From assembly GCF_003600625.1 (NCBI RefSeq), contig NZ_CP032489.1, forward strand, positions 2,294,001 to 2,358,000: 64,000 nucleotides of DNA, given 5' to 3'. Source of the DNA: Arachidicoccus soli. Lineage in GTDB: Bacteria > Bacteroidota > Bacteroidia > Chitinophagales > Chitinophagaceae. Position 1 is the first letter of the stretch. The number at the start of each line of letters is the position of its first letter. The position numbers and the translations under genes were made by a program. The notes under the pieces were generated by a model that did not search any database, was not told where the DNA came from, and saw only the letters and a list, made by a program, of their open reading frames with translations. Shown piece after piece: positions 26,205-49,122 of this stretch.

Positions 26205-26232
26205 ACGCAATCGATATTGGGAACGATTGCGT
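26205..26232. promoter_or_regulatory. LacI-type operator A (pectin unit 1)
   Basis: Palindrome with perfect arms ACGCAATCG / CGATTGCGT separated by 10 bases (ATATTGGGAA). The core GCAATCG-N10-CGATTGC (26207-26230) matches the sites upstream of units 2, 3 and 4. It is presumed bound by the LacI-family protein encoded at 49248. Between it and the GH28 at 26306 a weak hairpin (CCAAT/ATTGG near 26252) may end unit 2. Confidence 0.75.
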
Positions 26233-26305
26233 TTTTAAAAATATGACTATGCCAATAAATGATTGGCCCATTATCTAGAAATTGGGCGTGTATTTTTCCC
26301 ATCAA

Positions 26306-27790
26306 TTAATATTTTTCGGTCAACTTATGATTATTTATAAATACATTTTTAAACGAAATATCATTTGCATTTTCTGTTTCATAATCTTTTTTAGCTGTAA
26401 TATTCATATTGGAAAAATACAAATGATTGACAGGCATCTCTGGTAACCCTATAATAGATATAGCGGTAGAAGCACCTACACAATAAATATGATTCATATA
26501 GAAATCTTGAAATTTTGGGGTAGTCGCATTTACGGAAAATTTTTCAGTAGGTTTATTTTTCTGTTCATAATAAGTATTAAATAATATTGCTTCATTAGCG
26601 ATATTATTCATGTAAATATTATTGATATAAATATTATGCACCAGTCCACCTCTTCCGCGATTGCTTTTCACACGAATACCAATATCTGTATTGATATAAT
26701 TGCAATTACTTACGCTTATGTTTTCCATACCACCATCTGTATTACTCCCTATTACAAATCCGCCATGAGCATGATACACAATACAATCAGCAATAATTAC
26801 ATTTTTCAAACAAGAGGTATCTGTTTTATCAGATGCAGGTCTGCTGGATTTCATGCAAATACCATCATCACCGGTACTGACAGTGCATTTATAGATAATT
26901 ACATTTTTGCTATTAGAAATATCAATTCCATCTCCGTTTTGCGCATACCATTCATTATTGATTTTTACATCCCGGATCACAAGATTGTCGCAATATTTAG
27001 GGAACAGGGCAAATTTCGGAGAATTCATAAATGTAGGGCCGTCAATTAAAATACGCGTAGAGTTATTAATAGAGACCATATATGGACGTAAGAAATCGCG
27101 GGCCGGCAATAAATCTTCGGAAGCTATTTCTGGATGTGCTTTGTATATTTTCTTCAAGTATACTTCTCCTTCCATGGCTTCTTTTGTTGGCCACCATAAC
27201 TTTCCATCTTCGCTTACAGCACCGCCTTGCCTCAATAAATCTTTCCATTGGCCTTCGGTTGTTTTTTCTTTTTTAACGGGTCTCCAAGAATCGCCGGAAC
27301 CATTAATAATTCCTTCTCCTGTAATAGCCACATCATGCAATTTGTACCCATAAATAGGGTTCATTACAAAAAAAGAATGGCTCTTTGGGGAGTTTGCAAT
27401 AATGGGAAATAAGCGATGGTCTTTTGAAAACAACAATATTGCTCCTTGTTGCAAATGTAGGTTGATCTTACTTTTCAATTCAATCGGACCAGTAAGCCAT
27501 AATCCGGGAGGCACATTCACTATACCGCCCCCTTTTGCGACACAAGCACTGATAGCTTTTGCAATAGCAGATGTATTTAATGTATGTCCGTCTCCTACTG
27601 CACCGAAGCTGGTAATATCTACTTTCAAATTAGGAATATTGGGCAAGGCTGGTGCATTCATTTTAAATGGAGCAGCGTCTACATATTTTTGAATCTCTGC
27701 TTTAATATTTTCTTGCGCAGAAGCTCTTACTAAAAAGCCAAAACCCAAAAGAAATAGAAAGGAGAATAATTTAATTGGTTTACCTATCAT
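26306..27790 (-). CDS. GH28 polygalacturonase-like glycoside hydrolase
   Basis: I place the start at ATG 27790, giving 494 residues with a proper signal peptide (MIGKPIKLFSFLFLLGFGF...SAQ); a longer frame adds 21 residues before the signal. GH28 motifs: NGDGIDISNSKN, STGDDGICMKSSRP, HAHGGFVIGSNTDGG, IRVKSNRGRGG. It is paralogous to the GH28 at 24417, sharing the CTLWLTGPIE-type opening and the family core. It is the last gene of unit 2, behind the DUF5123-like lipoprotein, so it probably acts on oligomers captured by SusCD of that unit. Confidence 0.92.
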   Translation of the reverse strand: MIGKPIKLFSFLFLLGFGFLVRASAQENIKAEIQKYVDAAPFKMNAPALPNIPNLKVDITSFGAVGDGHTLNTSAIAKAISACVAKGGGIVNVPPGLWLTGPIELKSKINLHLQQGAILLFSKDHRLFPIIANSPKSHSFFVMNPIYGYKLHDVAITGEGIINGSGDSWRPVKKEKTTEGQWKDLLRQGGAVSEDGKLWWPTKEAMEGEVYLKKIYKAHPEIASEDLLPARDFLRPYMVSINNSTRILIDGPTFMNSPKFALFPKYCDNLVIRDVKINNEWYAQNGDGIDISNSKNVIIYKCTVSTGDDGICMKSSRPASDKTDTSCLKNVIIADCIVYHAHGGFVIGSNTDGGMENISVSNCNYINTDIGIRVKSNRGRGGLVHNIYINNIYMNNIANEAILFNTYYEQKNKPTEKFSVNATTPKFQDFYMNHIYCVGASTAISIIGLPEMPVNHLYFSNMNITAKKDYETENANDISFKNVFINNHKLTEKY

Positions 27791-27865
27791 ATCTAATATT
27801 TCATTGTTACATAAAAAATATTGCCTGATGAATGGCCTATATCCACCAAGCAATATATTGTTTAA

Positions 27866-29461
27866 TTATTTCCATCTTGGGTCACCCGCAGTGCTCTTAC
27901 CTGCAAAACCAGCATCTTTGAAGGAGAAGTTGCCATTATCAGGATCGACAAATAAATCATAGGAAGTACCAGCGTAGCTGCCAGGTCCGACTAATGGATT
28001 CGCGCTAAATATGCAATCGGAGGTTTGATAACAATTATTAAATGCAGCACCTCCAGAAGATTTTATGCCATTAGAACTACTTGGATCAAGTGTTTTACCA
28101 AAAATACAATTGGTAAAAGCAAAACTGGTTGGGAATGCTGTTGAGTAATTTACAAAATATCCCCCCTGATTAATCATGTTGTCAAAAGTGCAATTATTTA
28201 CATTCAAAGAAGTAGTCGTAACACCATCTTGACGAACAAAATAATAGAAATCGCTAAATGTACAATTGTCGATTTCCATATTATCGAACAGAGCTTTACT
28301 GCTTCCGCTGGCATAGAATACGGCGTACTTAGCACCGATACCAATACTATCAATAATACAATTGTTCATATAAAAATTAGCAACTTTATCACCCGAAGTT
28401 TTCATACGAATAAATGAATTATTATAAACGCCTCTAGTCGTGCAGTTAATAATACGCATCTTACCAATAGTAACCGGGTTACTTATATTCATAAAATAAC
28501 TCGCACCGCTTGCAGCCAATGTTAAATCAGAAAATGTGATAGAATCAATCGTCCCTGAAGCATCTAGATTGGTAGCTAAAGCTATGGTAGCAGGATCTCC
28601 AAAGCCTAAGCCGCTTTCAATTGTAAGCGACTGAGTAATCACATAGGTTGTTGCAGGCATATCGTAAGTCATACCTCTTTCTAATAATACAACACTCCCA
28701 TTAGGAATACCACTTACCAATGTATCATTCAAAATATTGGCATCAGCAATACCTCTTAAGTCCACAATATTATTCCCTACCTGGGAGGCTTTTGTGGTAA
28801 AAGTCAATAATCCTTTACTTCTGGCACCTGCAAAAATTTCTGCGGTATATTTAGTATTTGGCATTAGACCTTTTGCAATAATTTCACCCACAGTATTGAT
28901 ACTGTCAGAAATTGGAACTTTTATGACATTGGCCGAAGGATCCGTTAAATCTATTTCCGTGATGCCCGGCGTTGTCGTCCAGCTTAGTTTTACCTTGTTA
29001 TCAATAATATCAGAACTCTGTAATGGTGTAAAGATTTGTACACCAACTAAGGTAAATCCGACTGTATCCTTCACCCAGTAAGATTCACCTGAAGTGCCTG
29101 AAGCATTCGCTTTCACACGTATATAATATTTAGTTCTGTCACGTAGGGTGTCATCCGTTACTGTTCTAAAGTTTGTATTGACCACAACTGATAAATCCGG
29201 TGTGCCCGCAAAACTTGAATCCTTCGATATTTCCAAAGTATAGCTCACGTTCTTTGCAGCAGAATAAAGTGATGCCGGCCAAGAAATAGTTGCTGTCGTA
29301 TCTCCTCCCGAGATAGCAATGGAAGTAGGTGTGAACATCCTGCTTGGGTTAAAATATGCTATACTTGACTTCTTACAGGAAAGTACAACGATTGCTATAA
29401 ATATGCCTGTAAATATCAAAGAGAGATATTGAAATTTCGTTTTTTTCATGTCCTTATTCAT
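27866..29461 (-). CDS. surface lipoprotein with fibronectin-III and DUF4957/DUF5123-like beta-helix domains
   Basis: About 531 residues from ATG 29461 (an ATG four codons further in is equally possible). Signal peptide with lipobox ...IVVLSCKKSS, so probably an outer-membrane lipoprotein. Two FN3-like domains follow (~45-155, ISGGDTTATISWPASL; ~155-245), then a parallel beta-helix (~250-525: VNNCTFDNMINQGGYFV, FTNCIFGKTLD). The layout fits DUF4957/DUF5123 proteins found in pectin loci of Bacteroidota. It sits where SusE/SusF-like binding proteins usually are, directly behind susD. A glycan-binding role is inferred; no catalytic residues were recognised. Confidence 0.8.
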   Translation of the reverse strand: MNKDMKKTKFQYLSLIFTGIFIAIVVLSCKKSSIAYFNPSRMFTPTSIAISGGDTTATISWPASLYSAAKNVSYTLEISKDSSFAGTPDLSVVVNTNFRTVTDDTLRDRTKYYIRVKANASGTSGESYWVKDTVGFTLVGVQIFTPLQSSDIIDNKVKLSWTTTPGITEIDLTDPSANVIKVPISDSINTVGEIIAKGLMPNTKYTAEIFAGARSKGLLTFTTKASQVGNNIVDLRGIADANILNDTLVSGIPNGSVVLLERGMTYDMPATTYVITQSLTIESGLGFGDPATIALATNLDASGTIDSITFSDLTLAASGASYFMNISNPVTIGKMRIINCTTRGVYNNSFIRMKTSGDKVANFYMNNCIIDSIGIGAKYAVFYASGSSKALFDNMEIDNCTFSDFYYFVRQDGVTTTSLNVNNCTFDNMINQGGYFVNYSTAFPTSFAFTNCIFGKTLDPSSSNGIKSSGGAAFNNCYQTSDCIFSANPLVGPGSYAGTSYDLFVDPDNGNFSFKDAGFAGKSTAGDPRWK

Positions 29462-29489
29462 TTTATTTAATCTATTAAGACAATTTATT

Positions 29490-31247
29490 TTAATAGCCAT
29501 AATCTTGTTTAAGATTTGGATTAGCATCTATAGCAGCTTGAGGTATAGGTAACAATTCGCTATGATTATCCTTAAACCCTTCAGCGAAATATTGAAGATT
29601 ACCACTTAATAGATTGCTTACCCAGGTTACAGAAGTTGCACCCGATGGTGTCGTTGCAGAAGAAGGATGATAAAAGGAAGAAGCCCAATTTATAACCGTC
29701 GTAGAGGGACCCGCAACATAATACATTTTTGCAGGCAAAGTATCATATGGCGGTGCATTATTACTAATATCAGTAAGCGCTTGTTTAGCCGCCCTCAATT
29801 TATCGCCTATGAGATTCCATCTTATCAAATCATATTTTCTTATACCTTCAGTACCAAACTCCAATGCTCTTTCATTTACGATTGCATTAAAGAAACCCGC
29901 TTTATCTGTTGGTGCAGTCCCCATCTCCCCTAGGTTTCCCGCAAATGCACGCTGCCTAACCAAATTAAAGGCATCTATACCGGCAGCTGTTGGGCCGTTG
30001 TTTATCTCATTTTCTGCTTCTGCATACATAAGTAAAACATCTGAGTAGCGAAGAATAGGCCAGTTCAAACCAAAATTCTGTGCTTGATTACTTATATCAA
30101 TAGTTGGATTCGTAATCCAATTGCGTCTAAATTTACCATCAGCCAAACTGGAAAGCCCTACAGCAGATAATGTATTATCACTGTTTATTTTATAAGGAGC
30201 AATGGTAACATCTCTACGCGTATCTACAGAGTCAAACATATAGAAGTAACTAGGTAAAATTGTTAAACTTCCATTTGGGCCGTTGTACTTACCCAATTTA
30301 CTGTCTGTGCTAGAAGTGCCACCACTCATAGCCACCTGAAACATAAATTCACCATAGGGATCTATCTGATGTGCATCCAATTGGTTCTGCCACAAATCTT
30401 GAAAACTAGGATCGAGTTTGTGCTCTCCTGACTGAATGATATCTGCACATTCCTGATCAGCTATCTTATAATAATCCAAATAATTAGATCCTCTTTCCAT
30501 TTGATTGTCTCTTCTCAAAGAATAGCCTCCTCTGAATAATGCAATCCTAGCTCTCAAACCTTTTACGGCGCCTTTTGTAATACGTTCATCATTAGGGTCA
30601 CCAAGGGCGCTCACGCCTGAACGCCAAGGAACTAGATCTTCAGCAATTTTTAAGTCATTGAGAATATGATCGTATATTGAGTCTCTATCTGTTTTTGCTA
30701 TAAACAAATTGGGTATATCAGAAGAAGGTACCCATTGTGCCGGGACATCTCCCCAATTCCTAACCAGTTCAAAATAATATTGCGCTCTCAGTGTTAAAGA
30801 CTCACCATACAACCTTTGTAATTCTGCTTTTTGCTGAGAGGTTCCATTATTGTATAAACTCATCTGTGGAATATATTTAATACACTGATTAGCCCTCTCG
30901 ATACCAGCATACATTTGGTTAAATGGTTTAAAAAGCTGCGCATTACTTGAGGTAAGATTATATCTTCCAATATCTCTTCGGTCTCCATCATTTTGCCCGC
31001 CAGCGCCCATCATTAAATCATTATCATAAGGAAAATACATACTTACACGAATCCCGTATCCATTATCGCCGGTCATTTCCTGATATGCCCCAAAAACAGC
31101 TTTTTGCGCATTGGAGACTGTACCAAAAACCACATTTGGGCCAAAAGAAGAAACCGGATTCAGGGTTAAATACTTCTTACAAGAAGATAGCTGCAGTATC
31201 TCCACTGAAAGAAATAGTGTATAATAAATTATTGTTTTAATCTTCAT
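29490..31247 (-). CDS. SusD/RagB-family nutrient-binding lipoprotein
   Basis: A 585-residue outer-membrane lipoprotein with lipobox LQLSSCKKYL, TPR-like helical N-terminal half (RLYGESLTLRAQYYFELVRNWGDVP) and the typical SusD C-terminus (NWPILRYSDVLLMYAEAENE, NERALEFGTEGIRKYDLIRW, ending LLPIPQAAIDANPNLKQDYGY). It forms the lid of the SusC channel encoded 20 bases upstream. The pectin context implies a galacturonan- or rhamnogalacturonan-derived ligand. Confidence 0.95.
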   Translation of the reverse strand: MKIKTIIYYTLFLSVEILQLSSCKKYLTLNPVSSFGPNVVFGTVSNAQKAVFGAYQEMTGDNGYGIRVSMYFPYDNDLMMGAGGQNDGDRRDIGRYNLTSSNAQLFKPFNQMYAGIERANQCIKYIPQMSLYNNGTSQQKAELQRLYGESLTLRAQYYFELVRNWGDVPAQWVPSSDIPNLFIAKTDRDSIYDHILNDLKIAEDLVPWRSGVSALGDPNDERITKGAVKGLRARIALFRGGYSLRRDNQMERGSNYLDYYKIADQECADIIQSGEHKLDPSFQDLWQNQLDAHQIDPYGEFMFQVAMSGGTSSTDSKLGKYNGPNGSLTILPSYFYMFDSVDTRRDVTIAPYKINSDNTLSAVGLSSLADGKFRRNWITNPTIDISNQAQNFGLNWPILRYSDVLLMYAEAENEINNGPTAAGIDAFNLVRQRAFAGNLGEMGTAPTDKAGFFNAIVNERALEFGTEGIRKYDLIRWNLIGDKLRAAKQALTDISNNAPPYDTLPAKMYYVAGPSTTVINWASSFYHPSSATTPSGATSVTWVSNLLSGNLQYFAEGFKDNHSELLPIPQAAIDANPNLKQDYGY

Positions 31248-31267
31248 GGTATAAAATATTTTAATTT

Positions 31268-34200
31268 TTAAAGAGTAACATTAACACCAAAAATAAAAGA
31301 GCGTGCACGCGGGTAAGCCGAATAATCTACACCTGGCGTCATAGGAACACTTCTTCTCGTATTCACTTCCGGGTCATATCCTGAATACCCGGTTAACACT
31401 GCCAAATTGTTTACAGTTCCATACACTCTAAACTTTTTTATCCCTGCTTTTTTGAGCAACCCTTTCGGTAAGGTATAACCCAAGGTTATATTATTAATTC
31501 TAAGAAAAGAACCGTCTTCAATAGCCCAGGATTGCGGCGTCCAGGAGCTGCCGGTGGTCATTGGCTGCCAAAGTGTTGCATTCTTATTAAGTTCGGCTAA
31601 GGCAGTAGGGTCAGTTACTACCTGACCTTGTGGATTAACGGTTTTCCATCTATTATTATCTATGGCAAGCAGGTTGGCACCCACCGTATATCCGCTGCTA
31701 AACTCTAGTTTATTGTCATTTACGATATCATTTCCATATTGGAAATTGAGAAATATGCTCATGTCAAAATTCTTATACACAAATTGCTGATTTAAGCCAC
31801 CGAAGAATTTGGGGTTGGCATTGCCTATAATTTTTCGATCATTATTCAAATCAACGATGCCATCTCCATTTAGATCTTTAAATTTAATGGTGCCTGGTTG
31901 TGGCGCAATACCAGCTACTTTTGAATCATCCACAACACCATTCTTAAGTATATATTTTTGTGTAGTACTATTAAAGTCAAAATCATCTATTGTATAAAAT
32001 CCATCGTTTACCAAACCATACATACTACCTACAGGGGCTCCTACTTTTACAATAAAGTCATCCGGGTTCGCTGCACCAGCCCATCCAGAATTAACTGTAA
32101 ATGACTGCTCCGTTCCACCAAGGCTTAGTACTTTGTTTTGATTGGTCGAGATATTAAAGTTAGCACTCCATAGGAAGTTTTTATTCTCTATAATTGAAGC
32201 GTTCAATTGTACTTCCAACCCATTATTTGAGGTAGAACCTACATTTTGAATCTGACTTGTATAGCCCGCAGTACCTGCTATAGTCACGCTCACAAGTAAA
32301 TCCTTCGTTTTATTTCTATAATAATCCGTCGATAATTGGATTCTATTTTTCAGAAAGGATAAGTCCAATCCAATATTTCTGGAAACATTAGTTTCCCATT
32401 TCAAATTAGAATTAGCCAATGCAACAGGGCCAAATGCGGTGGTCAATTGATTTTGCAACCCATAATAATTTTGATTTGTTCCAAACTGTGTCAAATAGAG
32501 GAAAGAAGGAATTCTATTATTACCCGCCTCTCCATAGCTCAAACGCAATTTCATATCGGAGATTACCGGTTTAAGGCTTTGCATAAATTTCTCCTGTGAC
32601 ACTCTCCAGGCTAAGGATGCGGCCGGGAAATACCCCCATTGATTGCCAGGACCAAAAACAGAAGAGCCGTCTGCCCTCATACTTAATGAGGCCAAATATT
32701 TATCATTATAGGCATAATTTATACGCGTAAAAAAGGAAGATATTCTTTGCTCATCCTGATTGGTTGTTGGCGAAGGCTCTGCATAACCTGTTGGAGGGCT
32801 CGCCAAATTTAAATTGCCCAATGCTTCGCTTGCTGTAGTGCCCAAAGGGAAAAATCTTTGTATGGTGGTTTGGGCATCCAATTGAATTTGATAAGATTCC
32901 TCTCCCAGTACCCAATCAATTTTATTGGCTTTATTAAATGAACCGGATAATTGTCTATTGGTTAAAGTGAATACATTTGAGTTATCAAAAGTATATCTGT
33001 TCGCCGTAGCAATAGTTGCTATCGGCATACCGTTGCCATTTGAGATAGCATTAGAGGTAAGGCTATCGTCAAATGAATTGGTTTTAGTAGGATAGTAATC
33101 ATAACCGGCAGTTGTCCTGAAACTTAAAAATTTAGTTATTGTCCAGTCTGCATAGCCACTTAGATTGATCCTGGTTTGGTATTGTTTTCTATACTGTGCA
33201 TTAATCAATAGAAGCGGGTTTACGATATATAAACCGTTGCCCGATGTATTATCTAACAACTCTGGATCATAGTAAGAAACAGATTGACCGGGAGCCAGAT
33301 AGGGAACATATCTTACAGCCTGCCTTAGGAAATTTAGCCCACTACTTCCAGGATTAGAAGTACCTTGTCCATCAACCGACTGATTATTGAACTTTACATT
33401 AAAGCCCAATTTCAATTTATCATTTACTTTATGTGAAAGACGGAAGTTGACCAATTTTCTATTATAGTCAGAACCTATCATTACGGCTTGTGCTTCATTG
33501 TCTGAAAGACTTAAATCAAATTGTGTTTTACTATCCCCTCCACTTACACTCACATTATGCGTTTGCATAAATGCATTTCTTCCAAAGACCTGATCCTGCC
33601 AATTAACAGCAGCAGCATTTTTATACAAGTCTATATCAGAAAAATTGCCGTAAGAGCTTGTATAACCACTTTCTAAAGTCGAATTCCCCCTACTTCTTTC
33701 ATATTGATAAAATACAAAATCATAAGGATCCATTACAGCTAATTTTTTCCCTACCTGCTGCCAGCCGACAAAGCCATTATAAGTAACCATTGAGTGACCC
33801 GCCTTGCCATTCTTAGTCGTAATGATAACTACGCCATTTGCACCTCTCGCACCGTAAATAGCTGTAGCAGATGCATCTTTTAACACATCAATGGATTCAA
33901 TATCCTGAGGTGACAAGGTGGATAAAGCATTATCTTCAATCATGCCATCAACCACGTATAAGGGGGAATTGTCCTGCGTAATGGAACCACCCCCGCGCAC
34001 TTTTATAGAGACTTGTGCATTAGGCGCCCCTTCTGACCCCGTCACCTGAACTCCGGCTAAACGGCCAGCCAATGCTTCTTCTGCTGAATTAATGGGAATA
34101 TCCTTCAACTGTTTTGCAGTAATAGAAGACACTGCTCCTGTCAGATCTTTTCTGCTAACAGTTCCGTATCCTATTACCACTACATCATTTAAATCATTGG

Positions 34201-34501
34201 AACTTTGTTTTAGGACAATATCGAGTCTCAGGTTATTCTTTTCTATAAGGATGGACTGATCATCATAACCGGTGTAAGCAAAAATCAATGTTGGGTTATT
34301 TATCTTCGATTTTGAGATATCAATCGAAAAGTCCCCCGAAGAATTGGTAAGTGTACCCGTATTTGTCTGCTTTAGCCTTACCGAGACCCCATCTAAAGGC
34401 ACTCCTTTTTCATTCGTCACATGACCAGAAATTACTCCTTTCTGGGCGAATGCAACTGTTGTAAAACAAAGCAGAAAAATAATGAGGATATTTTTTTTCA
34501 T
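31268..34501 (-). CDS. SusC/RagA-family TonB-dependent transporter
   Basis: About 1077 residues from ATG 34501 (MKKNILIIFLLCFTTVAFAQ signal). Carboxypeptidase-like domain (~20-100, GVISGHVTNEKGVPLDGVSVRLKQ), plug (~105-230: DVVVIGYGTVSRKDLTGAVSSI, VRGGGSITQDNSPLYVVDGM, IDVLKDASATAIYGARGANGV) and a 22-strand barrel ending RARSFIFGVNVTL. It imports oligosaccharides with its SusD partner. It is the first gene of unit 2, with the promoter element at 34550 and operator B at 34602. Its first ~55 residues and its leader closely match the second SusC. Confidence 0.96.
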   Translation of the reverse strand: MKKNILIIFLLCFTTVAFAQKGVISGHVTNEKGVPLDGVSVRLKQTNTGTLTNSSGDFSIDISKSKINNPTLIFAYTGYDDQSILIEKNNLRLDIVLKQSSNDLNDVVVIGYGTVSRKDLTGAVSSITAKQLKDIPINSAEEALAGRLAGVQVTGSEGAPNAQVSIKVRGGGSITQDNSPLYVVDGMIEDNALSTLSPQDIESIDVLKDASATAIYGARGANGVVIITTKNGKAGHSMVTYNGFVGWQQVGKKLAVMDPYDFVFYQYERSRGNSTLESGYTSSYGNFSDIDLYKNAAAVNWQDQVFGRNAFMQTHNVSVSGGDSKTQFDLSLSDNEAQAVMIGSDYNRKLVNFRLSHKVNDKLKLGFNVKFNNQSVDGQGTSNPGSSGLNFLRQAVRYVPYLAPGQSVSYYDPELLDNTSGNGLYIVNPLLLINAQYRKQYQTRINLSGYADWTITKFLSFRTTAGYDYYPTKTNSFDDSLTSNAISNGNGMPIATIATANRYTFDNSNVFTLTNRQLSGSFNKANKIDWVLGEESYQIQLDAQTTIQRFFPLGTTASEALGNLNLASPPTGYAEPSPTTNQDEQRISSFFTRINYAYNDKYLASLSMRADGSSVFGPGNQWGYFPAASLAWRVSQEKFMQSLKPVISDMKLRLSYGEAGNNRIPSFLYLTQFGTNQNYYGLQNQLTTAFGPVALANSNLKWETNVSRNIGLDLSFLKNRIQLSTDYYRNKTKDLLVSVTIAGTAGYTSQIQNVGSTSNNGLEVQLNASIIENKNFLWSANFNISTNQNKVLSLGGTEQSFTVNSGWAGAANPDDFIVKVGAPVGSMYGLVNDGFYTIDDFDFNSTTQKYILKNGVVDDSKVAGIAPQPGTIKFKDLNGDGIVDLNNDRKIIGNANPKFFGGLNQQFVYKNFDMSIFLNFQYGNDIVNDNKLEFSSGYTVGANLLAIDNNRWKTVNPQGQVVTDPTALAELNKNATLWQPMTTGSSWTPQSWAIEDGSFLRINNITLGYTLPKGLLKKAGIKKFRVYGTVNNLAVLTGYSGYDPEVNTRRSVPMTPGVDYSAYPRARSFIFGVNVTL

Positions 34502-34549
34502 TTGCAAATAATTTTAAAATGAGTTAAAGCATTTGGTTTTTCTTAACAG

Positions 34550-34556
34550 CAAAGTA
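34550..34556 (-). promoter_or_regulatory. candidate promoter element of pectin unit 2
   Basis: Reads TACTTTG on the minus strand, 49 bases before the susC start and 46 bp from the near edge of operator B. It is identical to the element of unit 3. Confidence 0.55.
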
Positions 34557-34601
34557 GAAGATTAAAATATTAATTATCATTCGTTAGTAATTAAAATTTA
34601 C

Positions 34602-34625
34602 GCAATCGATACCGATATCGATTGC
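34602..34625. promoter_or_regulatory. LacI-type operator B (pectin unit 2)
   Basis: GCAATCGATA-CCGA-TATCGATTGC: a perfect inverted repeat with 10-bp arms and a CG in the 4-base centre, typical of LacI-family operators. It is the best-conserved of the four copies. Confidence 0.82.
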
Positions 34626-37153: not shown

Positions 37154-37173
37154 TATAATTGGAGTTTTAATTG

Positions 37174-40545: not shown

Positions 40546-40552
40546 CAAAGTA
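40546..40552 (-). promoter_or_regulatory. candidate promoter element of pectin unit 3
   Basis: Reads TACTTTG on the minus strand, 52 bases before the susC start and 46 bp from the near edge of operator C. Confidence 0.55.
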
Positions 40553-40597
40553 TAAAACCATAGAATTAATTATCATTTGTTAGCGATAATTATTTAC

Positions 40598-40621
40598 GCA
40601 ATCGTTGTCGGTATCGATTGC
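40598..40621. promoter_or_regulatory. LacI-type operator C (pectin unit 3)
   Basis: GCAATCG-TTGTCGGTAT-CGATTGC, arms perfect over 7 bp with a central CG. The 45 bases between it and the promoter closely resemble those at operator B (shared AATGATAATTAAT), so the two control regions are probably duplicates. A degenerate half-site (GCAATCGATGGCAC...) follows at 40647. Confidence 0.78.
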
Positions 40622-40739
40622 AATAAATGTAAAATTCACTTTTATTGCAATCGATGGCACAAATTGTCAAACTTATGTGAGTAAGCTCAAAAATATTGGA
40701 GATAATACGATAATGGTTTTTAAATAGATCAAAAAGAGT

Positions 40740-41042: not shown

Positions 41043-41235
41043 TAAGAACTTCGGGTTGAGGAATCAACCTGCAACCGTTAAAGTGAGGCATTAGCCTGTG
41101 CTTATGGGTTGCGAAGCCCCCTCATCGCTTTTGCCTGAGTGGGTAATTCACAGACTAAGGATACAACAAATTATCCCATTTACTAAATATTGACCTTATT
41201 TATTTTTTAGTTTCGTATAAAAATAAATGCGTTTA

Positions 41236-43212
41236 CTATTTGTACTTATGGATAAATGCCTCCAAGTCAGGTAAATCAAAGTATTGAAGTACATCAGGGA
41301 TTACATAAGAATATTGGTCTTTCATTAATGGATGGTGCATTATATCATAAAATGATTTAACAGAATCACTATATTGAATATGATTAATTCTGCTATCCAG
41401 ACAGGCTGCTATTAAAGCTGGTTCAGCTGTAACTCCTGAAGCGTTAATGTCAATTGGTAATTTATTTATCTGTAGATTGCTTTCACAATAATCTACTAAA
41501 GTAAAGATATCTTCTGTGCGTTGAGCAGGCAAAGATTCTCCAATAAACAATGCTAACATTGCATTTCTATATTCCTTATTGTAGTATTTTGTATTATTAA
41601 ATGCTGTCGCATCAACTGTTTCACCCATTCCGCGAAGATCGGCTATTAGCAAAGCATCTCCCTTTGTATAATAGCTTTTAAGCAGGCTATCATTATTTAT
41701 AATATCGCTTTTCCCTTTATCGCTCAAGCAAATAATTAGTTTTTTATTTTGAATATTATTAGGACTTGCCCAGAAAAGAGGGATAGGCGGTTGACCTTCT
41801 TTTCTCAATAGTAGCTTATGAAATTGATAACCATCTTTTTCAAAACTTCCATTATCTTCCACATCAATAGCCGAGTGAGTGATTTGAATATGTGCTATCT
41901 TTTGTATCATTTCACGATACTCTTTTTGAGATAAATTTCTCAACAAATCTTCCCGATGTTCTTTCCAACGATCTGCCAAGGCTAAATTTCGATCTTGAAT
42001 ATCTACTTCATTTTTATAGGTGGCATTAACTTGTCCTGTTTTCGTTACGTCCAATTCCTTTTCGGACAAAGTATGTAAGTTACCTTCTTTTATAGACATA
42101 TTATCTTTCTTTAACCAACGACTAAACCATTGCACAGCTATTTCTTGCTTAGGTATTTGAATGCCATGGCCGTCATCATAAGAAAAAAGTTTTACTTTCT
42201 GCGGTTGTTTGAATTTTGTATAAACATTATTCAATTCCCGATACACATCTTTCACACCATTAAAATCTACAAAATCATAACGACCTGCTAATATCAATAA
42301 AGGTTTGGGGGCAAACATAATCGCATAATCGCTGATATCCAACCCTGCTTTACTTTCACCCGGCAACCATTGACAACCATCTTGCGGGCCTAATAATTCC
42401 AAAGTTCTTTCTCGTCTCGTCGTATAACTGCAAATGGAAGCAACCTTAATGCGGGAATCATAAGGAATAAAATACGCTGTTTGCGTTCCACCGCCTGAAT
42501 TTCCCAGACAACCTAATCTGGTTGTATCTACATTTTTCAAAGAACATAAATAATCCAATCCGCGTTCATTATCCCATAATTGATAGGCCACTACACTGGT
42601 TCCGACAAGATTAGAGTTGGAGGCAAGTAAAGTATGCCCGGTGGTACCTCCATGTGTAATGGGTTGCCCCTCAGCATTCGTCAACTGGAAACGCTCTCCT
42701 TGTGAGATGGGATCTATTGACAAAACCACAAAGCCATGTTTTGCAAAAAGTATCGCAGTTTGCTGATAGGTCAAAGTGGCTTTCGCAGTAGATTCGTGTC
42801 CACAGAAAAACAAAACCGCAGGGAATTTGCCTTCACCTTCAGGAATATATAAATCAGCGGTCACATGATGATCGGGAAAGCTTTGATAAACGACTTTCTC
42901 AATACGATAACCCTTTTCATATAAAGTGCCCGTAATCTGAGGATGTAAAGCCGCCTTCTGAGGTAATGCTCCTAATAAATTCAAATACTTTTTACGGCTG
43001 TTTTGTTGATAAGTTTTTAAGCTATTGTTCTGTAAGGCATCGGCCAAAACACTATCGCGATGGGTATATTGATCGTGTAATTTTCCCGTAAGAAAATTAT
43101 ATAAAGTAGTGTTTGCCTGCCAACCAATTTGGTTTAGTTTTAGTTTTTGTTGGGCATTGCTATTCTGTATAAAAAAGGAAAATATAATTAAGCCAAATAA
43201 AAACTTCTTCAT
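41236..43212 (-). CDS. tandem alpha/beta-hydrolase carbohydrate esterase (acetyl-xylan-esterase-like)
   Basis: A 658-residue exported protein (signal MKKFLFGLIIFSFFIQNSNAQ). The first hydrolase domain (~85-365) has strand-nucleophile elbow LGCLGNSGGGTQTAYF (Ser) and DDGHGIQIP (His), with an intervening acid in LLILAGRYDFVDF. The second domain (~440-655) keeps the fold pattern (KKLIICLSDKGKSD, ALLIADLRGMGE) but has no GxSxG elbow, so it is probably inactive. Related proteins in pectin loci remove methyl or acetyl esters; the exact ester is not readable. It is the last gene of unit 4. Confidence 0.82.
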   Translation of the reverse strand: MKKFLFGLIIFSFFIQNSNAQQKLKLNQIGWQANTTLYNFLTGKLHDQYTHRDSVLADALQNNSLKTYQQNSRKKYLNLLGALPQKAALHPQITGTLYEKGYRIEKVVYQSFPDHHVTADLYIPEGEGKFPAVLFFCGHESTAKATLTYQQTAILFAKHGFVVLSIDPISQGERFQLTNAEGQPITHGGTTGHTLLASNSNLVGTSVVAYQLWDNERGLDYLCSLKNVDTTRLGCLGNSGGGTQTAYFIPYDSRIKVASICSYTTRRERTLELLGPQDGCQWLPGESKAGLDISDYAIMFAPKPLLILAGRYDFVDFNGVKDVYRELNNVYTKFKQPQKVKLFSYDDGHGIQIPKQEIAVQWFSRWLKKDNMSIKEGNLHTLSEKELDVTKTGQVNATYKNEVDIQDRNLALADRWKEHREDLLRNLSQKEYREMIQKIAHIQITHSAIDVEDNGSFEKDGYQFHKLLLRKEGQPPIPLFWASPNNIQNKKLIICLSDKGKSDIINNDSLLKSYYTKGDALLIADLRGMGETVDATAFNNTKYYNKEYRNAMLALFIGESLPAQRTEDIFTLVDYCESNLQINKLPIDINASGVTAEPALIAACLDSRINHIQYSDSVKSFYDIMHHPLMKDQYSYVIPDVLQYFDLPDLEAFIHKYK

Positions 43213-43227
43213 AATTGAATAACTAAT

Positions 43228-44865
43228 TTATTTCGTTAAGGGTTCTATTCTAAACCAGTCAAAATCGGCAAAGCCACTGTCTTTGTTCCATCCTGAGCTT
43301 GTACAGAAAAGTCCCAATTTTGCACCTATCCATCTGCCTTCTTTCGCTTGAAAGCTATTTCCGACATGTACAAATTCGCTTCCATCTAAACTATAACTAA
43401 ACTGGCATTTTGCATCAGCACTTACATTTACACGAAAATAAATAGTACTATCTGAAATCGATTTAATCGTCTGAATAATTTCTTTTGCTCCTTCATTTGC
43501 TTTTTTACATGTCGCAAACGAGACTTGAAATCCATTATCAACTTTTGTCAAGGATAAATAAGCATAATCCATTCCCATAATTACAAACCCCACTTTATCT
43601 TGGTTTTGTATCGCATGAAAAGTCAATTTGGTTGTTGCAGTAAATTTATCAGCCGGAAATTTCTGCATCAAAATATTCGGTACATCCCAATAGTTTTTAT
43701 CATCTTTTAGTAATGGCTGTGCATATAATCTCAATGCACCTTCGCTTGTCAAAAAATACCAGGTAGCTTTTGGATTGGCTTGCCATTGCCATTGCAGCCC
43801 TAAACGATGTCCATTAAATTCGTCGGAAGTCTGCGGTGTTTGCAGAGGATAAGCTTTCCCAACATCTGGTTTTCTATAAGAAATTACCGGCTCTCCTATT
43901 CCCTCTCCATCCTTGTCTATGCCAATAATTGGCCAATCATTTTTCCAGATCATCGGCTCCAAATAATCTACTCTTCCATAAGCGCCCATATCTCTAAAAT
44001 GAATAAACCAGGATTGCTTTTCGTCAGGTGTTGTAACCCAGGCTCCTTGATGTGGCCCATTAATAGCCGTGCTACCTTGATGCATTACCGTTTTTCTTTC
44101 ATAAGGGCCCCAAATATTTTTGGAGCGCAAAACCATCTGGTAGCCACCTGAAACACCACCTGCAGGCGCAAATATATAATAATACCCATTGCGTTTATAC
44201 ATCTTGGGGCCTTCAATTCCCGGATCATCTTTGTGGCCATCATAAACAATAACCCCTTCGTCTGCCATTTTTGTTCCCCATCGATTAAGTTTATGCAAAA
44301 CCAGAATATTCCTGATTCCGGCACGGCTTCCAGCAAAAGCATGTACTAAATAACCTTGGCCGTCCTTATCCCAAAAAGGACAAGGATCTTCCAGTCCCTT
44401 TCCAGCTTCCACCAAAATAGGTTTACTCCAAACATCAGTTGTTTTTTTTGCTTTTACGACATAAATGCCAAAATCCGGGTCTGGGTAATAAATATAAAAA
44501 GAATCGTTGTGGTAACGGATTGCCGGCGCCCAAACACCGTTGCCGTGCTGTGTTTTAGAAAAATGTTTATAGGGAGGCTGGCGCAAAAGTGCATGCCCGA
44601 TAATTGTCCAGTTGACCAAATCATTAGAATGTAAAATAGGTAACCCTGGTACGGCATCGAAGCTAGAGGCAATTAAATAATAATCTTTGCCGACACGACA
44701 AACATCTGGATCGGAATAATCGGCAAAAAGAATAGGGTTTTTGTAGTTCCCATTCCCTAAGTCAGGTACCCAGGCTTTTGAGATATGGGCAACCTGTGCA
44801 TCTACTTTTTTTTGAGAAAAGAAAAAAGCAGAAAAGCTTAGAAAAATCAGTAATTTTTTATTCAT
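43228..44865 (-). CDS. GH43 glycoside hydrolase with C-terminal beta-sandwich
   Basis: About 545 residues from ATG 44865 (signal MNKKLLIFLSFSAFFF...DAQ; a longer frame adds 11 residues). A five-bladed propeller (~30-330) carries the GH43 triad: Asp in FADYSDPDVCRVGKDYYLIA, Asp in GKGLEDPCPFWDKDG, Glu in DPGIEGPKMYKRNGYYYIFA. The C-terminal beta-xylosidase-type sandwich (~345-540) is NEFNGH-like (SDEFNGHRLGLQWQWQANP). Activity is probably arabinofuranosidase or xylosidase on pectin side chains. It is 4 bases downstream of the CE8 gene. Confidence 0.92.
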   Translation of the reverse strand: MNKKLLIFLSFSAFFFSQKKVDAQVAHISKAWVPDLGNGNYKNPILFADYSDPDVCRVGKDYYLIASSFDAVPGLPILHSNDLVNWTIIGHALLRQPPYKHFSKTQHGNGVWAPAIRYHNDSFYIYYPDPDFGIYVVKAKKTTDVWSKPILVEAGKGLEDPCPFWDKDGQGYLVHAFAGSRAGIRNILVLHKLNRWGTKMADEGVIVYDGHKDDPGIEGPKMYKRNGYYYIFAPAGGVSGGYQMVLRSKNIWGPYERKTVMHQGSTAINGPHQGAWVTTPDEKQSWFIHFRDMGAYGRVDYLEPMIWKNDWPIIGIDKDGEGIGEPVISYRKPDVGKAYPLQTPQTSDEFNGHRLGLQWQWQANPKATWYFLTSEGALRLYAQPLLKDDKNYWDVPNILMQKFPADKFTATTKLTFHAIQNQDKVGFVIMGMDYAYLSLTKVDNGFQVSFATCKKANEGAKEIIQTIKSISDSTIYFRVNVSADAKCQFSYSLDGSEFVHVGNSFQAKEGRWIGAKLGLFCTSSGWNKDSGFADFDWFRIEPLTK

Positions 44866-44869
44866 AGAA

Positions 44870-45847
44870 TTAATTTGCCAAAGGATTCCAATTATCATTG
44901 CCCGATAAAATATTTTTTACAGTATATTGGTTTGCTTGTTCTTGGGTAAGTTGCTTAGCCCAAGAAACTCTAGCCGATAAATTACTTCCCTCTCCCTTAT
45001 TATGATATTCTGCATAAAAGACTGTTTTATAATTTTCAGTTCTGGACCAGTTCTGCCATCCTTCCGGTGCAATAAACTTCCCCAGATTACATTCCAGATA
45101 CACTACATTGGCATATTTGCGCCAGGGCCTGCCAAGGAATACCTTTGTCACTTTAGCCAAAGCTTTCAGGGTACAATTTCTAAATACAAAACCATATTTA
45201 GTATTTTCAGGGGTAGAAGCTGCTGTAATATAAGAGTTCGCTTTGCAAACAATTTCACAGTCCTCAAAAAGAGCCGTTGCTTCCCCAAAAATAAAATCGG
45301 TAGTACCGGTAATATAACAATCTTTGAAATATTGCCGGAAGTTCTCACCAGAGGCGTATACCGTGTCCTGATTCCCCAAAAGCCTACAATTAATAAAAGA
45401 ACACCGGTCTCCCTCTACATCCAGCGCGACTGCCTGCCCTATAGGACCTGCGCTATTTTCTATTGTCAGGTTTTCTGCATGAAAATCATTGGCTTGAACA
45501 AGTAAAGTGGCCGTATAAAAAGTACTATTGGGACCTTTATTTATTTTACCGAAATAATCTCCGAAGGAAATAATTGTACTATCCTTATTTTGTCCAATCA
45601 ATGAGATTTTTGTATTCCAGGACGGGATAATGACTTTCTCCTTATACACGCCATTTTTAATAAAAATAGTAATACGTTGATCAGGAAAGGACTTACAGGA
45701 TTCTATAGCTTTCTCAATAGAGGTAAAGTCTCCGCTACCGTCTTTAGCGACTGTAATTTTCGACTTATAATCACTTGCAAAAACTCTTGCACTTGTAAAA
45801 ATCAAAGTACAAACAAAACCAAAAATTAAAATAATTTTTCTGCTCAT
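44870..45847 (-). CDS. CE8 pectin methylesterase
   Basis: A 325-residue exported beta-helix that demethylates homogalacturonan, exposing it to hydrolases and lyases. Signal MSRKIILIFGFVCTLIFTSARVFAS. Catalytic blocks: NQDTVYASGENFRQYFKDCY (Gln, Asp), GTTDFIFGEATALFEDCEI (second Asp), LGRPWRKYANVVYLECNLG (Arg, Trp). Length is usual for the family. It is one of two CE8 genes in unit 4, separated by an SGNH esterase gene. Confidence 0.94.
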   Translation of the reverse strand: MSRKIILIFGFVCTLIFTSARVFASDYKSKITVAKDGSGDFTSIEKAIESCKSFPDQRITIFIKNGVYKEKVIIPSWNTKISLIGQNKDSTIISFGDYFGKINKGPNSTFYTATLLVQANDFHAENLTIENSAGPIGQAVALDVEGDRCSFINCRLLGNQDTVYASGENFRQYFKDCYITGTTDFIFGEATALFEDCEIVCKANSYITAASTPENTKYGFVFRNCTLKALAKVTKVFLGRPWRKYANVVYLECNLGKFIAPEGWQNWSRTENYKTVFYAEYHNKGEGSNLSARVSWAKQLTQEQANQYTVKNILSGNDNWNPLAN

Positions 45848-45850
45848 TTT

Positions 45851-46504
45851 TTAATAGATTTTATTCAACCCTTTCCATACAGCTGCTGCAATTTGTTGTT
45901 GGCCCTTCAAGTCCGGATGCAACCCGTCCGCATAATTAGGCTTTGAAACCGTGTTCAACAAGCTAATAAAACCAAGATGATCTTTTCTGGCCAAAGCCTT
46001 ATATTTTTTTTCCAAAGCCTTTAAAGACTTACTTGTATTTTCATTATATTTTTTCGCAACATTTACTTGCGACATTGTGTTCAAATTAATTGCGGAAGGA
46101 GAAAGGATCACTATTTTTGCTTTCGCATCTGCAGCGTGAATCTGGTCCACCATCCATTGCATATTTTCTATGCAGCTGTTTACCATGGCGGCATTCCCAT
46201 CTTTTAAGTCATTGACTCCTAGAAAAATTAAATAATAATCAGCATCAGCGTGTCTTTGTAAGACAGGTAAGAGTTCTTTTTTATCGGCAGTTTTCCTTCC
46301 ACTCCTGCCCTCATTTATAAATGATACACCAGGATAGTTGGCTTGTTGCAGATGCCAAACCCAACTATGGCCATCTACCTTCGCGCCATAGGTAATCGAG
46401 TCACCAAAGCAAACAATCTTACCATGAACCTTATCTTTAAAAGACATACAAGCAATGCCCGTTAAAAGCATTAAAAACATCATCAACCCATTCTTCTTTT
46501 GCAT
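45851..46504 (-). CDS. SGNH/GDSL hydrolase
   Basis: A 217-residue exported esterase. Block I FGDSITYGAKVDGHSW (nucleophile Ser), block II Gly in NEGRSGRKT, block III LGVNDLKDG (Asn), block V DGLHPDLKGQQQIA (Asp/His). Signal MQKKNGLMMFLMLLTGIACMSF. The family includes acetylesterases acting on glycans and also lysophospholipases. The pectin context favours deacetylation of pectin fragments, which is inference. It is 3 bases downstream... of which the CE8 at 44870 follows immediately in the same operon. Confidence 0.88.
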   Translation of the reverse strand: MQKKNGLMMFLMLLTGIACMSFKDKVHGKIVCFGDSITYGAKVDGHSWVWHLQQANYPGVSFINEGRSGRKTADKKELLPVLQRHADADYYLIFLGVNDLKDGNAAMVNSCIENMQWMVDQIHAADAKAKIVILSPSAINLNTMSQVNVAKKYNENTSKSLKALEKKYKALARKDHLGFISLLNTVSKPNYADGLHPDLKGQQQIAAAVWKGLNKIY

Positions 46505-46528
46505 CTGAATTTTAATTAAAAATTACTA

Positions 46529-47488
46529 TTATTTGTCAGTCGGGATCCAGTTATTGAAAACATTTTTTATCGTATACGTCTTTGCCTGCTCTGCTGTCAG
46601 CTGATGTGACCAAGCAACCCTTCCTGAAGGATCTGCGCCCGGCCCATAACTTTGATATTCAAAATAACGAGCTGTTTTATCTCTATTTGTGTTATGCCAA
46701 TTGGACCAACCCTCCGGTTTTATAACATGACCAAGGTAACAATGAATAAAGGCCACACAGGCATAATCACGCCAAGGTCTTCCTAAATCCGCCTTTGTAA
46801 CATTAGAAGCCCCGGTAATTTTACAATCATAGAATACATATCCAAAAGCATGATCCTGCGGTGTAGCGGCTGCTGTAATATGCGAATCTCTTTTACAATA
46901 AATGGAGCAATGATCAAAATAAGCGGTGGCTGCACCAAAAATAAAATCGGTTGTTCCTTCAATATAACAATTCTTAAAATACGCACGACTATCCTTATTA
47001 TTGGTCAACAAAACATCTTGATTCCCTAAAAATCTACAATTGTAAAATGCGACCCTGTCTCCGTTGATATGCACTGCTACAGCCTGCCCGGCATTATACC
47101 CTGCATCGTTTTGAAAGGAAATATTTCTAGCTGTAAAATCATCTGCATTAATCAGAAAACTAAATGAAGTGCTTGTGCCAATCGTTTCACCGGAAGGAGC
47201 AACTCTTCCGGTATGATCGTCGAAAGTAAGAATCGTATTAGCAGCATCTTCGCCAATTAAGGTTACCAACTTTTTGGATTTAGTCAAATGTAGCTTCTCC
47301 TTGTAAATGCCCTTCTTAATAAAGATAGTAACAGGCAGTTTATTATCCGAAGGAATTTTATCAAATGCCCCTTGAACAGTTGTAAAATCCCCACTGCCGT
47401 CTTTGGCAACAATGATTTCATTTCTCTTCTGTGCAAAAGAAAAAAGACAAATCATTATACAACAAGTTAAAACAATTAGTTTTTTCAT
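46529..47488 (-). CDS. CE8 pectin methylesterase
   Basis: A 319-residue exported pectinesterase, paralogue of the CE8 at 44870. Signal MKKLIVLTCCIMICLFSFAQ. Motifs: GNQDVLLTNNKDSRAYFKNCY, EGTTDFIFGAATAYFDHCSI, LGRPWRDYACVAFIHCYLG. Both copies keep all catalytic residues, so they probably differ in methylation pattern or oligomer length. It lies 6 bases after the second CE12 gene and 24 bases before the SGNH gene. Confidence 0.94.
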   Translation of the reverse strand: MKKLIVLTCCIMICLFSFAQKRNEIIVAKDGSGDFTTVQGAFDKIPSDNKLPVTIFIKKGIYKEKLHLTKSKKLVTLIGEDAANTILTFDDHTGRVAPSGETIGTSTSFSFLINADDFTARNISFQNDAGYNAGQAVAVHINGDRVAFYNCRFLGNQDVLLTNNKDSRAYFKNCYIEGTTDFIFGAATAYFDHCSIYCKRDSHITAAATPQDHAFGYVFYDCKITGASNVTKADLGRPWRDYACVAFIHCYLGHVIKPEGWSNWHNTNRDKTARYFEYQSYGPGADPSGRVAWSHQLTAEQAKTYTIKNVFNNWIPTDK

Positions 47489-47494
47489 CTTTGA

Positions 47495-48241
47495 TTATCG
47501 GTTTCCTGTAATATGTTCTGCTAAAGGCAGATTTGCATTTCTGATTCCTTCTAAGACCAGTTCTGCGATATGTCGCGCACCGTATTCATTAAAATGTGTA
47601 GCATTTTTCAACATGCCTTGCGGGTAATTTGGCTCTTCACCGGGTTTCAAAAGAAGGAATAATAATTTTGAATTCTCTGGACCAAATTTCTGATACAAAT
47701 TGATACTCATTTGATCCAAATCGATTAGGGGAACATTCATATTTTTAGCCACTTCTCTTACAATCGGAGAATAAATAGCATGCGTTTCCAGGGCTTTCCC
47801 ACCGGCATCAAATTTTCTCCTGCTTACGGGAGTAATAAGGACCGGTATAGCGCCTTTCTCTTTTGTATCATTAATAAATCTTTCTAAATTTTTCCGATAA
47901 TCTTCCGGTGTCGTATATCTGTCCGGATAGTTTTTGGCTTCGTCATTATGCCCAAATTGGATAAAAACATAATCCCCCTTTTGCAGATTATCCTTTATAG
48001 GCGTCCAGAGCCCTTCTGACAAAAAAGTACGCGTACTTCTTCCGCCTCTCGCTTTATTTTGAATAAGAACAGAAGAATCAAAATAATTGGCAAAAGGCAT
48101 TCCCCACCCTGTTAAAGGAAATTGCGCACTATTATAATTGCAAACAGTAGAATCGCCAATAAGCCAGATAGTCGTTTTTCTATGGATACCAAAAATAAAA
48201 GACATCAGGAAGGATGGCAGCAGAAAGAGCGTCTTATTCAT
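47495..48241 (-). CDS. CE12 rhamnogalacturonan acetylesterase
   Basis: About 248 residues from ATG 48241 (MNKTLFLLPSFLMSFIFGI); longer frames start inside the preceding CE12 gene and lack a good signal. CE12 blocks: IWLIGDSTVCNYN (Ser), TGWGMPFANYF, ARGGRSTRTF (Gly), VFIQFGHNDEA (Asn), THFNEYGARHIAE (Asp/His pair). It removes acetyl groups from rhamnogalacturonan. Its start overlaps the upstream CE12 stop by 8 bases, so the two are translationally coupled. Confidence 0.92.
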   Translation of the reverse strand: MNKTLFLLPSFLMSFIFGIHRKTTIWLIGDSTVCNYNSAQFPLTGWGMPFANYFDSSVLIQNKARGGRSTRTFLSEGLWTPIKDNLQKGDYVFIQFGHNDEAKNYPDRYTTPEDYRKNLERFINDTKEKGAIPVLITPVSRRKFDAGGKALETHAIYSPIVREVAKNMNVPLIDLDQMSINLYQKFGPENSKLLFLLLKPGEEPNYPQGMLKNATHFNEYGARHIAELVLEGIRNANLPLAEHITGNR

Positions 48242-49022
48242 GCATTTTTTCATTCGATTGCTTAACATTATTTTGAGATATATTTTTGATATAATTTTCC
48301 AATCCCAGATCTTGCTCTTCAATCTGCTGTAGTACGATCTCCGCCATTGTTCTCGCGCCTAATTCGCTAAAATGTGTGTTATCAGTATGCCCTTTGGAAT
48401 AATGTGGATTCTCAGCAGGGTCTAAATGATTGTATAAGAAAGCTGACTTTTCAGGTCCTAATTTCTGCAGTAAATCGCGACTTAATTGATCTAAATCAAT
48501 CAATGGCAGTTTTGCTTCTTTTGCTGTTTCCCGAACAATATGAGCATATGCGTGATGTGTATCCAAAAGTTTTCCGTTACTGTCAAAGGCCCGCCTGGCA
48601 ACTGGAGTTATTAATATTGGAAAAGCACCTTTAGATCTGCTTTCTGCAATAAATTTCAAAAGATTTGCTTTATACTGCGCAGGTGGCGTATAACTTCTTT
48701 TTGTGGGAACTTCATCATTGTGCCCAAATTGTATCAATACATAATCGCCGGGTTTTAGCGCATCATAAACAGCTTTCCATCGACCCTCTTCTATAAAGGT
48801 CCTAGTACTTCGGCCATTTTGCGCTGTATTATCAACAATTGCATTTTTATTAAAAAAATAATGAAAAGGCATCCCCCAGCCCGTTTCGGGGTATGCTTTA
48901 ACGCTCTTATCTGCCATGGTGGAATCTCCTATCAGATAGATCTTTATTTGCTTTTCAGGTAAAAAAGAAAAGGATAAAAGTCCCATTAGCACAATTATCA
49001 TTTTACCATATTTACTTTGCAT
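48234..49022 (-). CDS. CE12 rhamnogalacturonan acetylesterase
   Basis: About 262 residues from ATG 49022 (MQSKYGKMIIVLMGLLSFSF). A longer frame begins at 49124, but operator D (49099-49122) lies inside that extension, so the downstream ATG is preferred. CE12 blocks: IYLIGDSTMADKSV, TGWGMPFHYFF, QNGRSTRTF, VLIQFGHNDEV, THFSELGARTMAE. It is a paralogue of the next CE12 gene and the first gene of unit 4 (seven genes down to 41236). Confidence 0.92.
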   Translation of the reverse strand: MQSKYGKMIIVLMGLLSFSFLPEKQIKIYLIGDSTMADKSVKAYPETGWGMPFHYFFNKNAIVDNTAQNGRSTRTFIEEGRWKAVYDALKPGDYVLIQFGHNDEVPTKRSYTPPAQYKANLLKFIAESRSKGAFPILITPVARRAFDSNGKLLDTHHAYAHIVRETAKEAKLPLIDLDQLSRDLLQKLGPEKSAFLYNHLDPAENPHYSKGHTDNTHFSELGARTMAEIVLQQIEEQDLGLENYIKNISQNNVKQSNEKMHE

Positions 49023-49098
49023 TTTCAATTTTTCTTCTTTAAAACGATTGTTTGTTTGCAAGTTACTCATTAACAAAAAGTACAAACAAAAAAAATAT

Positions 49099-49122
49099 GC
49101 AATCGATACCGGCATCGATTGC
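49099..49122. promoter_or_regulatory. LacI-type operator D, shared by pectin unit 4 and lacI
   Basis: GCAATCG-ATACCGGCAT-CGATTGC. It lies 77 bases before the CE12 start and 126 bases before the divergent lacI start, so it can control both. No TAnTTTG element sits 46 bp away on the CE12 side; a TAACTTG is 47 bp away on the lacI side (49169-49175). Confidence 0.78.

Follow-up and report, generated by a model that had tools for sequence, protein, structure and literature searches.

A fixed operator-to-promoter distance points to an activator-like LacI-family pectin regulon in Arachidicoccus soli and related Bacteroidota

We analysed a 64,000-nucleotide stretch of the Arachidicoccus soli genome (contig NZ_CP032489.1, positions 2,294,001 to 2,358,000; hereafter the window), in which the palindrome GCAATCG-N10-CGATTGC stands at the head of four pectin-related gene units, once beside a divergent gene for a 346-amino-acid LacI-family regulator (49248..50288, plus strand). 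Our comparisons suggest, with a probability that we put at about 0.68, that this 49248 protein is a LacI-family activator, pectin-specific and acting from a directional operator, of a kind found in Chitinophagaceae and some of their relatives. The assignment of the palindrome to a LacI-family pectin regulon is well supported by these comparisons; a regulon of this kind is already known, and the present one is real, conserved and wider than first noted, the unexpected part being the activator-like design of its promoters. An earlier, sequence-only reading of the window had described the palindrome as the mark of a LacI regulon; beyond it we found a fixed operator-to-promoter distance and a directional half-site, which together point to activation.

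The four copies reported in the window proved exact, with zero mismatches each (26207..26230, 34602..34625 and 40598..40621 on the minus strand, and 49099..49122, to which no strand is assigned), and each lies, as described, at the head of a minus-strand unit, the last one between unit 4 and the divergent lacI gene. The central CG ascribed to the spacer is present at three of them and absent from 26207, where the centre is TG. No further full copy occurs in the window, the next-best being two matches with three mismatches, and shuffled windows contained a mean of 2.06 matches within three mismatches. The base composition of the window predicts 0.00008 perfect copies for the window and 0.005 for the genome, which, at 4,099,663 bases in one contig, holds exactly five: the four in the window and a fifth 868 kb away (G000:C1:1475719), which heads another pectin operon. 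A local-only regulon, as first described, was rejected on account of this fifth copy, and the regulon is instead pectin-specific and spread over two loci. The genome-wide motif search found no perfect palindrome outside pectin operons and thus none of the many unrelated copies that would have spoken against such a regulon. Three places with one mismatch (G000:C1:527603, 1602368 and 3268234) share one identical 24-mer, on either strand, and are probably copies of an unrelated repeat element. These repeat-like places are what could be cited for a view of the palindromes as products of chance or of a repeat element without regulatory role; nothing favours that view for the perfect sites, and with five of them found where 0.005 were expected and the site conserved across families we consider it very improbable. 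A relaxed genome scan allowing up to three mismatches was dropped for target finding, as it was noisy (149 matches vs 61 with the reversed pattern).

Relatives of the regulator were collected by a scan of bacterial genomes, the best 80 of 92 loci being used. When up to 450 bases before lacI were scanned in 79 of these loci, a palindrome agreeing at no fewer than 18 of the 22 operator positions, our threshold, was present in 46, and in 0 of 1660 first-order Markov shuffles. Genes of the pectin set, that is, relatives of the pectin genes of the window or of the fifth operon with at least 40% identity and at least 40% coverage, neighbour lacI at 37 of the 46 site-bearing loci and at 8 of the 34 others; at least one such neighbour was found at 41 of the 57 loci whose LacI is at least 50% identical, and at 4 of the remaining 23. 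The lacI genes beside pectin-type SusC or enzymes come mostly from Chitinophagaceae, and also from Pedobacter, Flectobacillus, Dyadobacter and Runella. The proposed LacI regulon is supported by a site that is kept beside homologous lacI genes, and by a composite form of the site that precedes pectin genes in other genomes, as described below. Its arrangement had been called unusual, yet it is not unique, as the 41 loci just mentioned also have lacI next to pectin-type SusC or pectin enzymes.

The 49248 protein has a LacI helix-turn-helix (HTH) domain (PF00356, 48.5 bits vs a 27-bit cut-off) and a sugar-sensing, periplasmic-binding-protein-like domain (PF00532 and PF13377, both above cut-off). 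It scored below every NCBIfam LacI equivalog cut-off (RbsR, CytR, PurR, CcpA and others), the best being RbsR with 212 bits vs 382 and CcpA reaching 164 vs 442. Its relatives in the PDB are near full-length and the nearest by sequence is CcpA (1rzr), with residues 6-329 matching CcpA chains. A maximum-likelihood tree of 82 proteins, rooted at the midpoint, placed the window protein in a supported group of 67 rows (100/96), of which 46 have the site and in which the recognition helix, judged by eye, is mostly LSTSTVSRAL. A paralogue in the same genome (L174, G000:C1:668936-669964), 55% identical, groups with two same-genus proteins, and it has a changed recognition helix and no site. Palindromic operators, a trait of the LacI family, were found at all four window sites, and the central CG in 39 of 39 aligned promoters.

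It is the layout of operator and putative promoter that points to activation. On the side of the operator that faces away from lacI, 39 of the 46 site-bearing loci have a TAnn(n)TTG element whose start lies 46-47 nucleotides (nt) further on, and no comparable spacing peak was seen towards lacI in the same 46. A fixed site distance is a trait of class I-type activators, and it is present in these 39 loci relative to a core promoter that is placed by consensus only. The Bacteroides promoter consensus has TAnnTTTG at -7 and TTTG near -33 (PMC7366714); if the -7 element is at its usual place, the centre of the operator would lie near -70. Across the 39 aligned promoters the spacers have a median identity of 30%, with 586 of 741 pairs below 40%, while the operators have a median of 83%; the spacer has diverged where the operator was kept, so it is the length of the spacer and not its sequence that is conserved. 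The site itself is asymmetric, as the promoter-proximal half and the GTAAA following it are nearly invariant in these promoters and the distal half is looser, and the information content recovers at the TAGACTTG-like element and immediately ahead of it. Among 73 distinct promoters, the distal half is poor (at most 4 of 8 scored positions) in 12, and 21 have a -33-like TTG at a distance of 17-21 nt from the -7 element, vs 4-7 in four control windows of equal width. Four of the five sites in the A. soli genome share the 46-47 nt geometry. TAnnnTTG was rejected as the sole -7 form because it misses this genome, and the TAnnTTG form was added.

To search regardless of location, we used the composite pattern ACGWTTGCRTAAA-N35..40-TANNNTTG in 99 related genomes, where it gave 34 matches in 23 genomes and its reversed form gave 0; the palindrome core alone, ATCGWTNYCGRNAWCGAT, had been dropped for this use, with matches in 23 of the 99 genomes vs 5 for the reversed control. 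Thirty of the 34 matches, those with loci, were inspected, the target being the largest of the first open reading frames (ORFs) that start within 800 bases. Twenty-six of them precede genes for GH28 (12), SusC (9), UxaC (2), GH105 (1), UxaB (1) and a pectate lyase (1) that carries a pectinesterase domain by Pfam; seven of the nine SusC proteins are 44-54% identical to those of the window and two are 38-39% identical. A further match beyond the 30 (L226) precedes a SusC-type receptor. The four other inspected matches comprise two before sigma-70/ECF-type (extracytoplasmic function) factors, one before a semialdehyde dehydrogenase and one at a contig end without an ORF; the two sigma factor genes belong to two genomes of the family (L197:1811-2413 and L201:910-1467). 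When every spacing of 5-70 nt after GTAAA was allowed in 59 genomes, 29 matches fell at 39-41 nt and 13 at the other 63 spacings; by component, 8 matches fell at 5-34 nt and 12 at 41-70 nt, seven of them at exactly 41. Some of the 13 off-peak spacings are a second TAnnnTTG word behind a half-site that also has one at the peak spacing. Composite promoters occur in 20 of the 30 genomes with a close LacI vs 3 of the 69 without (P = 8e-11) and, within the family, in 20 of 30 vs 3 of 30 (P = 5e-6), both P values being uncorrected for kinship and the close-LacI list being made by eye. With the TAnnTTG form, the A. soli genome has exactly four matches, all at perfect operators. The TAnnnTTG form was present in 6 of 198 genomes of a phylum-wide sample, which shows the rarity of that exact form and not the absence of the system, since the form misses the A. 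soli genome.

This distribution bears on the possibility that the palindrome is bound by some other regulator, for example an unlinked hybrid two-component system (HTCS) or an AraC- or GntR-type protein, and that the neighbouring lacI is incidental. An HTCS gene does follow the fifth operon, 34 of the 80 lacI loci have no scored site, the close paralogue L174 likewise, and composite promoters occur in three genomes that lack a close LacI. Against these stand the site in front of the lacI homologue itself, as seen at 46 of 79 loci, the concentration of composite promoters in genomes with a close LacI, also within the family, a central CG that fits LacI-family operators, and the largely uniform recognition helix of the clade. 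We therefore regard binding by another regulator as improbable.

Binding by the 49248 protein, activation in preference to repression, the start sites, the contact with polymerase and the inducer are what we infer from these features. The protein would be a ligand-responsive activator of pectin and galacturonate use, whose dimer would bind the 24-base-pair palindrome, centred about 70 base pairs before the transcription start. The fixed, directional element there is the half-site nearer the promoter, CCGGNAWCGATTGC, with GTAAAWAAA directly after it. The dimer would help RNA polymerase with the primary sigma factor to use a promoter made of a TAnn(n)TTG -7 element and a weak -33 element, probably by touching polymerase, in a class I-like way, across the A-rich GTAAAWAAA segment. 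Judging by the sugar-binding domain and by the genes for uronate use, the inducer would probably be galacturonate or a closely related product of pectin breakdown. One regulator could then drive the pectin esterases, the SusCD pairs, the polygalacturonases and the uronate pathway, as well as the distant operon, behind which the HTCS gene lies. Activation is preferred because the fixed distance, the diverged spacer, the directional half-site and the weak -33 element all fit an activator bound near -70. We find it slightly favoured that Chitinophagaceae and relatives have a class of pectin-locus regulators that are class I-like LacI-family activators on primary-sigma promoters, with a directional operator of which one half-site with GTAAAWAAA, fixed at 46-47 nt from the -7 element, would suffice, and that they head cascades, standing above an ECF-type sigma factor in some genomes and perhaps above an HTCS in the present one.

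The main rival to activation is repression from upstream, by a classical LacI-family repressor that is released by a pectin breakdown product and that either loops the DNA between operators or stands in the way of another activator. Members of the LacI family are mostly repressors, which counts against an activator; moreover, there are several operators in one cluster, and an extra half-site, GCAATCGAT, lies at 40647, upstream of the unit 3 operator. Steric repression is disfavoured because the operator would need to lie over or near the core promoter, whereas in 39 of 46 loci it is clear of the putative promoter, its last base being 46-47 nt upstream of the -7 element. The rigid spacing and the directional half-site, with its poor distal partner in 12 of 73 promoters, also go beyond what plain steric repression requires, and we hold repression to be unlikely. 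A repressor overlapping the promoter, which a TTG inside the 49099 palindrome had suggested, was dropped, as the aligned flanks put the -7-like element at 46-47 nt.

Several further observations weigh against the 49248 protein being an activator with a fixed promoter geometry. Seven of the 46 loci have no -7-like element at 46-47 nt from the scored palindrome, although one of these, L026 of A. rhizosphaerae, has a separate half-site at the same spacing instead, and operator 49099 has its -7-like element towards unit 4 at 34 nt, about one helical turn closer. The four composite promoters of A. soli use TAnTTTG-like forms, with 0 matches to TAnnnTTG, and TAnTTTG was not enriched upstream of ORFs (15 sense and 19 antisense occurrences in 182 regions), so that the start sites are guesses. 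The corresponding counts were 26 and 11 for TAnnTTTG and 57 and 43 for TAnnnTTG, and of the three forms the enrichment of TAnnTTTG alone lends support, which is modest, in regions that may include some pectin promoters. Three of the four composite promoters in this genome (34602, 40598 and L001) agree at 40-45 of the 56 bases that follow the operator; they may have arisen by duplication and are not three independent cases, as homologous promoters share ancestry. In each of the same-genus genomes G001, G003 and G004 there is one composite promoter at the GDSL unit, with a poor distal half, and the TAnnTTG form also matches at G001:3295884 and once in G002, which lacks a close LacI; the three genomes with composite promoters but no close LacI belong here as well. 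Outside the family the core ATCGWTNYCGRNAWCGAT is at background (4 matches vs 4 reversed in 39 order-level genomes). As to the regulator, 21 of the 67 clade rows lack a scored site (the unscanned L040 among them), eight lacI loci without a site still have pectin neighbours, and the window protein has K in the recognition helix where most of the clade has T. A block, CTAACRAATGATAATTA, is common to the spacers at 34602, 40598 and L001, and part of it occurs reverse-complemented in same-genus promoters; it is perhaps the site of a second regulator or a trace of promoter duplication.

Related systems have been described, and we draw here on parts of the papers cited. The LacI-family uronate regulators KdgR (BT0487), UxaR (BT0824), UxuR (BT1434) and UxmR (BT3613) of Bacteroides were predicted in 2013 by comparative genomics (Ravcheev et al., PMC3878776; also PMC4052901), and the KdgR and UxmR regulons are reported to extend to a few genes with periplasmic or extracellular products (PMC3878776). 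They resemble the 49248 regulator in family, in phylum and in their uronate pathways, but in the parts of that report used here SusCD is named for ManR and AraR instead and neither a fixed spacing nor an activator role is described. ManR (GntR family) and AraR (NrtR family) of B. thetaiotaomicron were predicted to control SusCD along with a sugar pathway (PMC3878776), a combination that they share, as one-component regulators, with the 49248 protein, although they belong to other protein families and serve other sugars. These predictions, too, take away from the claim that the present regulon is unusual. CcpA of Bacillus activates from sites upstream of -35, dependent on the helix face, but represses many more genes than it activates, and it represses the lev operon from upstream by blocking another activator (PMC3463425). 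It is a LacI/GalR-family member and the nearest PDB relative of the 49248 protein, and an operator at the inferred -70 would be in the position class from which CcpA activates; unlike it, CcpA exerts global catabolite control and acts on promoters of a different type. Pectin/rhamnogalacturonan regulons with SusCD are also described for HTCS_Rgu-1 and HTCS_Rgu-2 of B. thetaiotaomicron (PMC3878776), but these are membrane hybrid two-component regulators with direct-repeat sites. No account of a 49248-type regulator or of its operator-promoter spacing was found in searches of an open-licence library, including the available parts of PMC3878776, PMC4052901, PMC5306329, PMC12125979, PMC10766802, PMC7366714 and PMC3463425.

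In Bacteroidota, control of polysaccharide utilization loci is usually ascribed to HTCS, SusR or ECF systems. If the activator proposed here is correct, many environmental Bacteroidota, above all Chitinophagaceae, would instead run their pectin loci by a one-component LacI-type activator, and the composite promoter (half-site, GTAAAWAAA, fixed gap and TAnn(n)TTG) would serve as a sequence rule for predicting targets in genomes without annotation. Such an activator would also offer a clean, testable case of a mostly repressing family that activates on the unusual promoters of Bacteroidota.

Within the window, unit boundaries were drawn from strand and spacing, and genes were identified by Pfam and some by NCBIfam cut-offs. 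Unit 1 (19303..26096, minus strand, as are all four units) encodes a GH28 protein (24417-26096), a GH88/105 protein (22481-24409), the tagaturonate reductase UxaB (20955-22484, above its NCBIfam cut-off) and a UxaA-type altronate/galactarate dehydratase (19303-20952). Unit 2 (26306..34507) encodes SusC1, SusD1, a DUF5123/fn3 protein and GH28, and unit 3 (35108..40494) encodes SusC2, above the NCBIfam TIGR04056 cut-off, and SusD2; the two SusC proteins are 40% identical. The operators of these three units also match the composite promoter, with putative -7 elements on the minus strand that start 46 nt beyond the operator: TAATTTG at 26155..26161 for unit 1, and TACTTTG at 34550..34556 and 40546..40552 for units 2 and 3. 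Unit 4 (41236..49022) encodes three GDSL esterases, two pectinesterases, GH43 and an acetyl-xylan-esterase-like protein. The first gene of this unit likely begins at ATG 49022, on the downstream side of the operator, and its listed TTG start at 49124 overlaps the operator. On either side of operator 49099, TAACTTG was picked out by eye, towards unit 4 at 49059..49065 (minus strand, 34 nt, where the composite pattern does not match) and towards lacI at 49169..49175 (plus strand, 47 nt). The statement that no HTCS, SusR or ECF system is present holds among the 18 Pfam-scanned ORFs of the pectin cluster (19.3-50.3 kb), a check that left out short and antisense ORFs; an HTCS gene follows the fifth, unlinked operon. 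A histidine kinase is encoded at 7463-8515 of the window.

The fifth operon encodes two BD-FAE-type esterases, GH43, a pectinesterase and a GH88/105 protein. The HTCS gene (L025:1192-5595), with Reg_prop, Y_Y_Y, HisKA, receiver and AraC-type HTH domains, follows it on the same strand after 51 bases, and the LacI site of the operon may feed this gene as well. Genes of conjugation and mobilisation, for a TraG-type coupling protein, a relaxase and a NikA/MobC-like protein, lie on the upstream side of the operon (L025:12074-15888), and the operon was perhaps brought in by a mobile element or next to one. A different group of LacI proteins, from Bacteroidales (L102 and L103, with L098 and L100 similar by eye), has a palindrome followed by TAnnTTTG 67-68 nt beyond it, a spacing about two helical turns longer than 46-47 nt.

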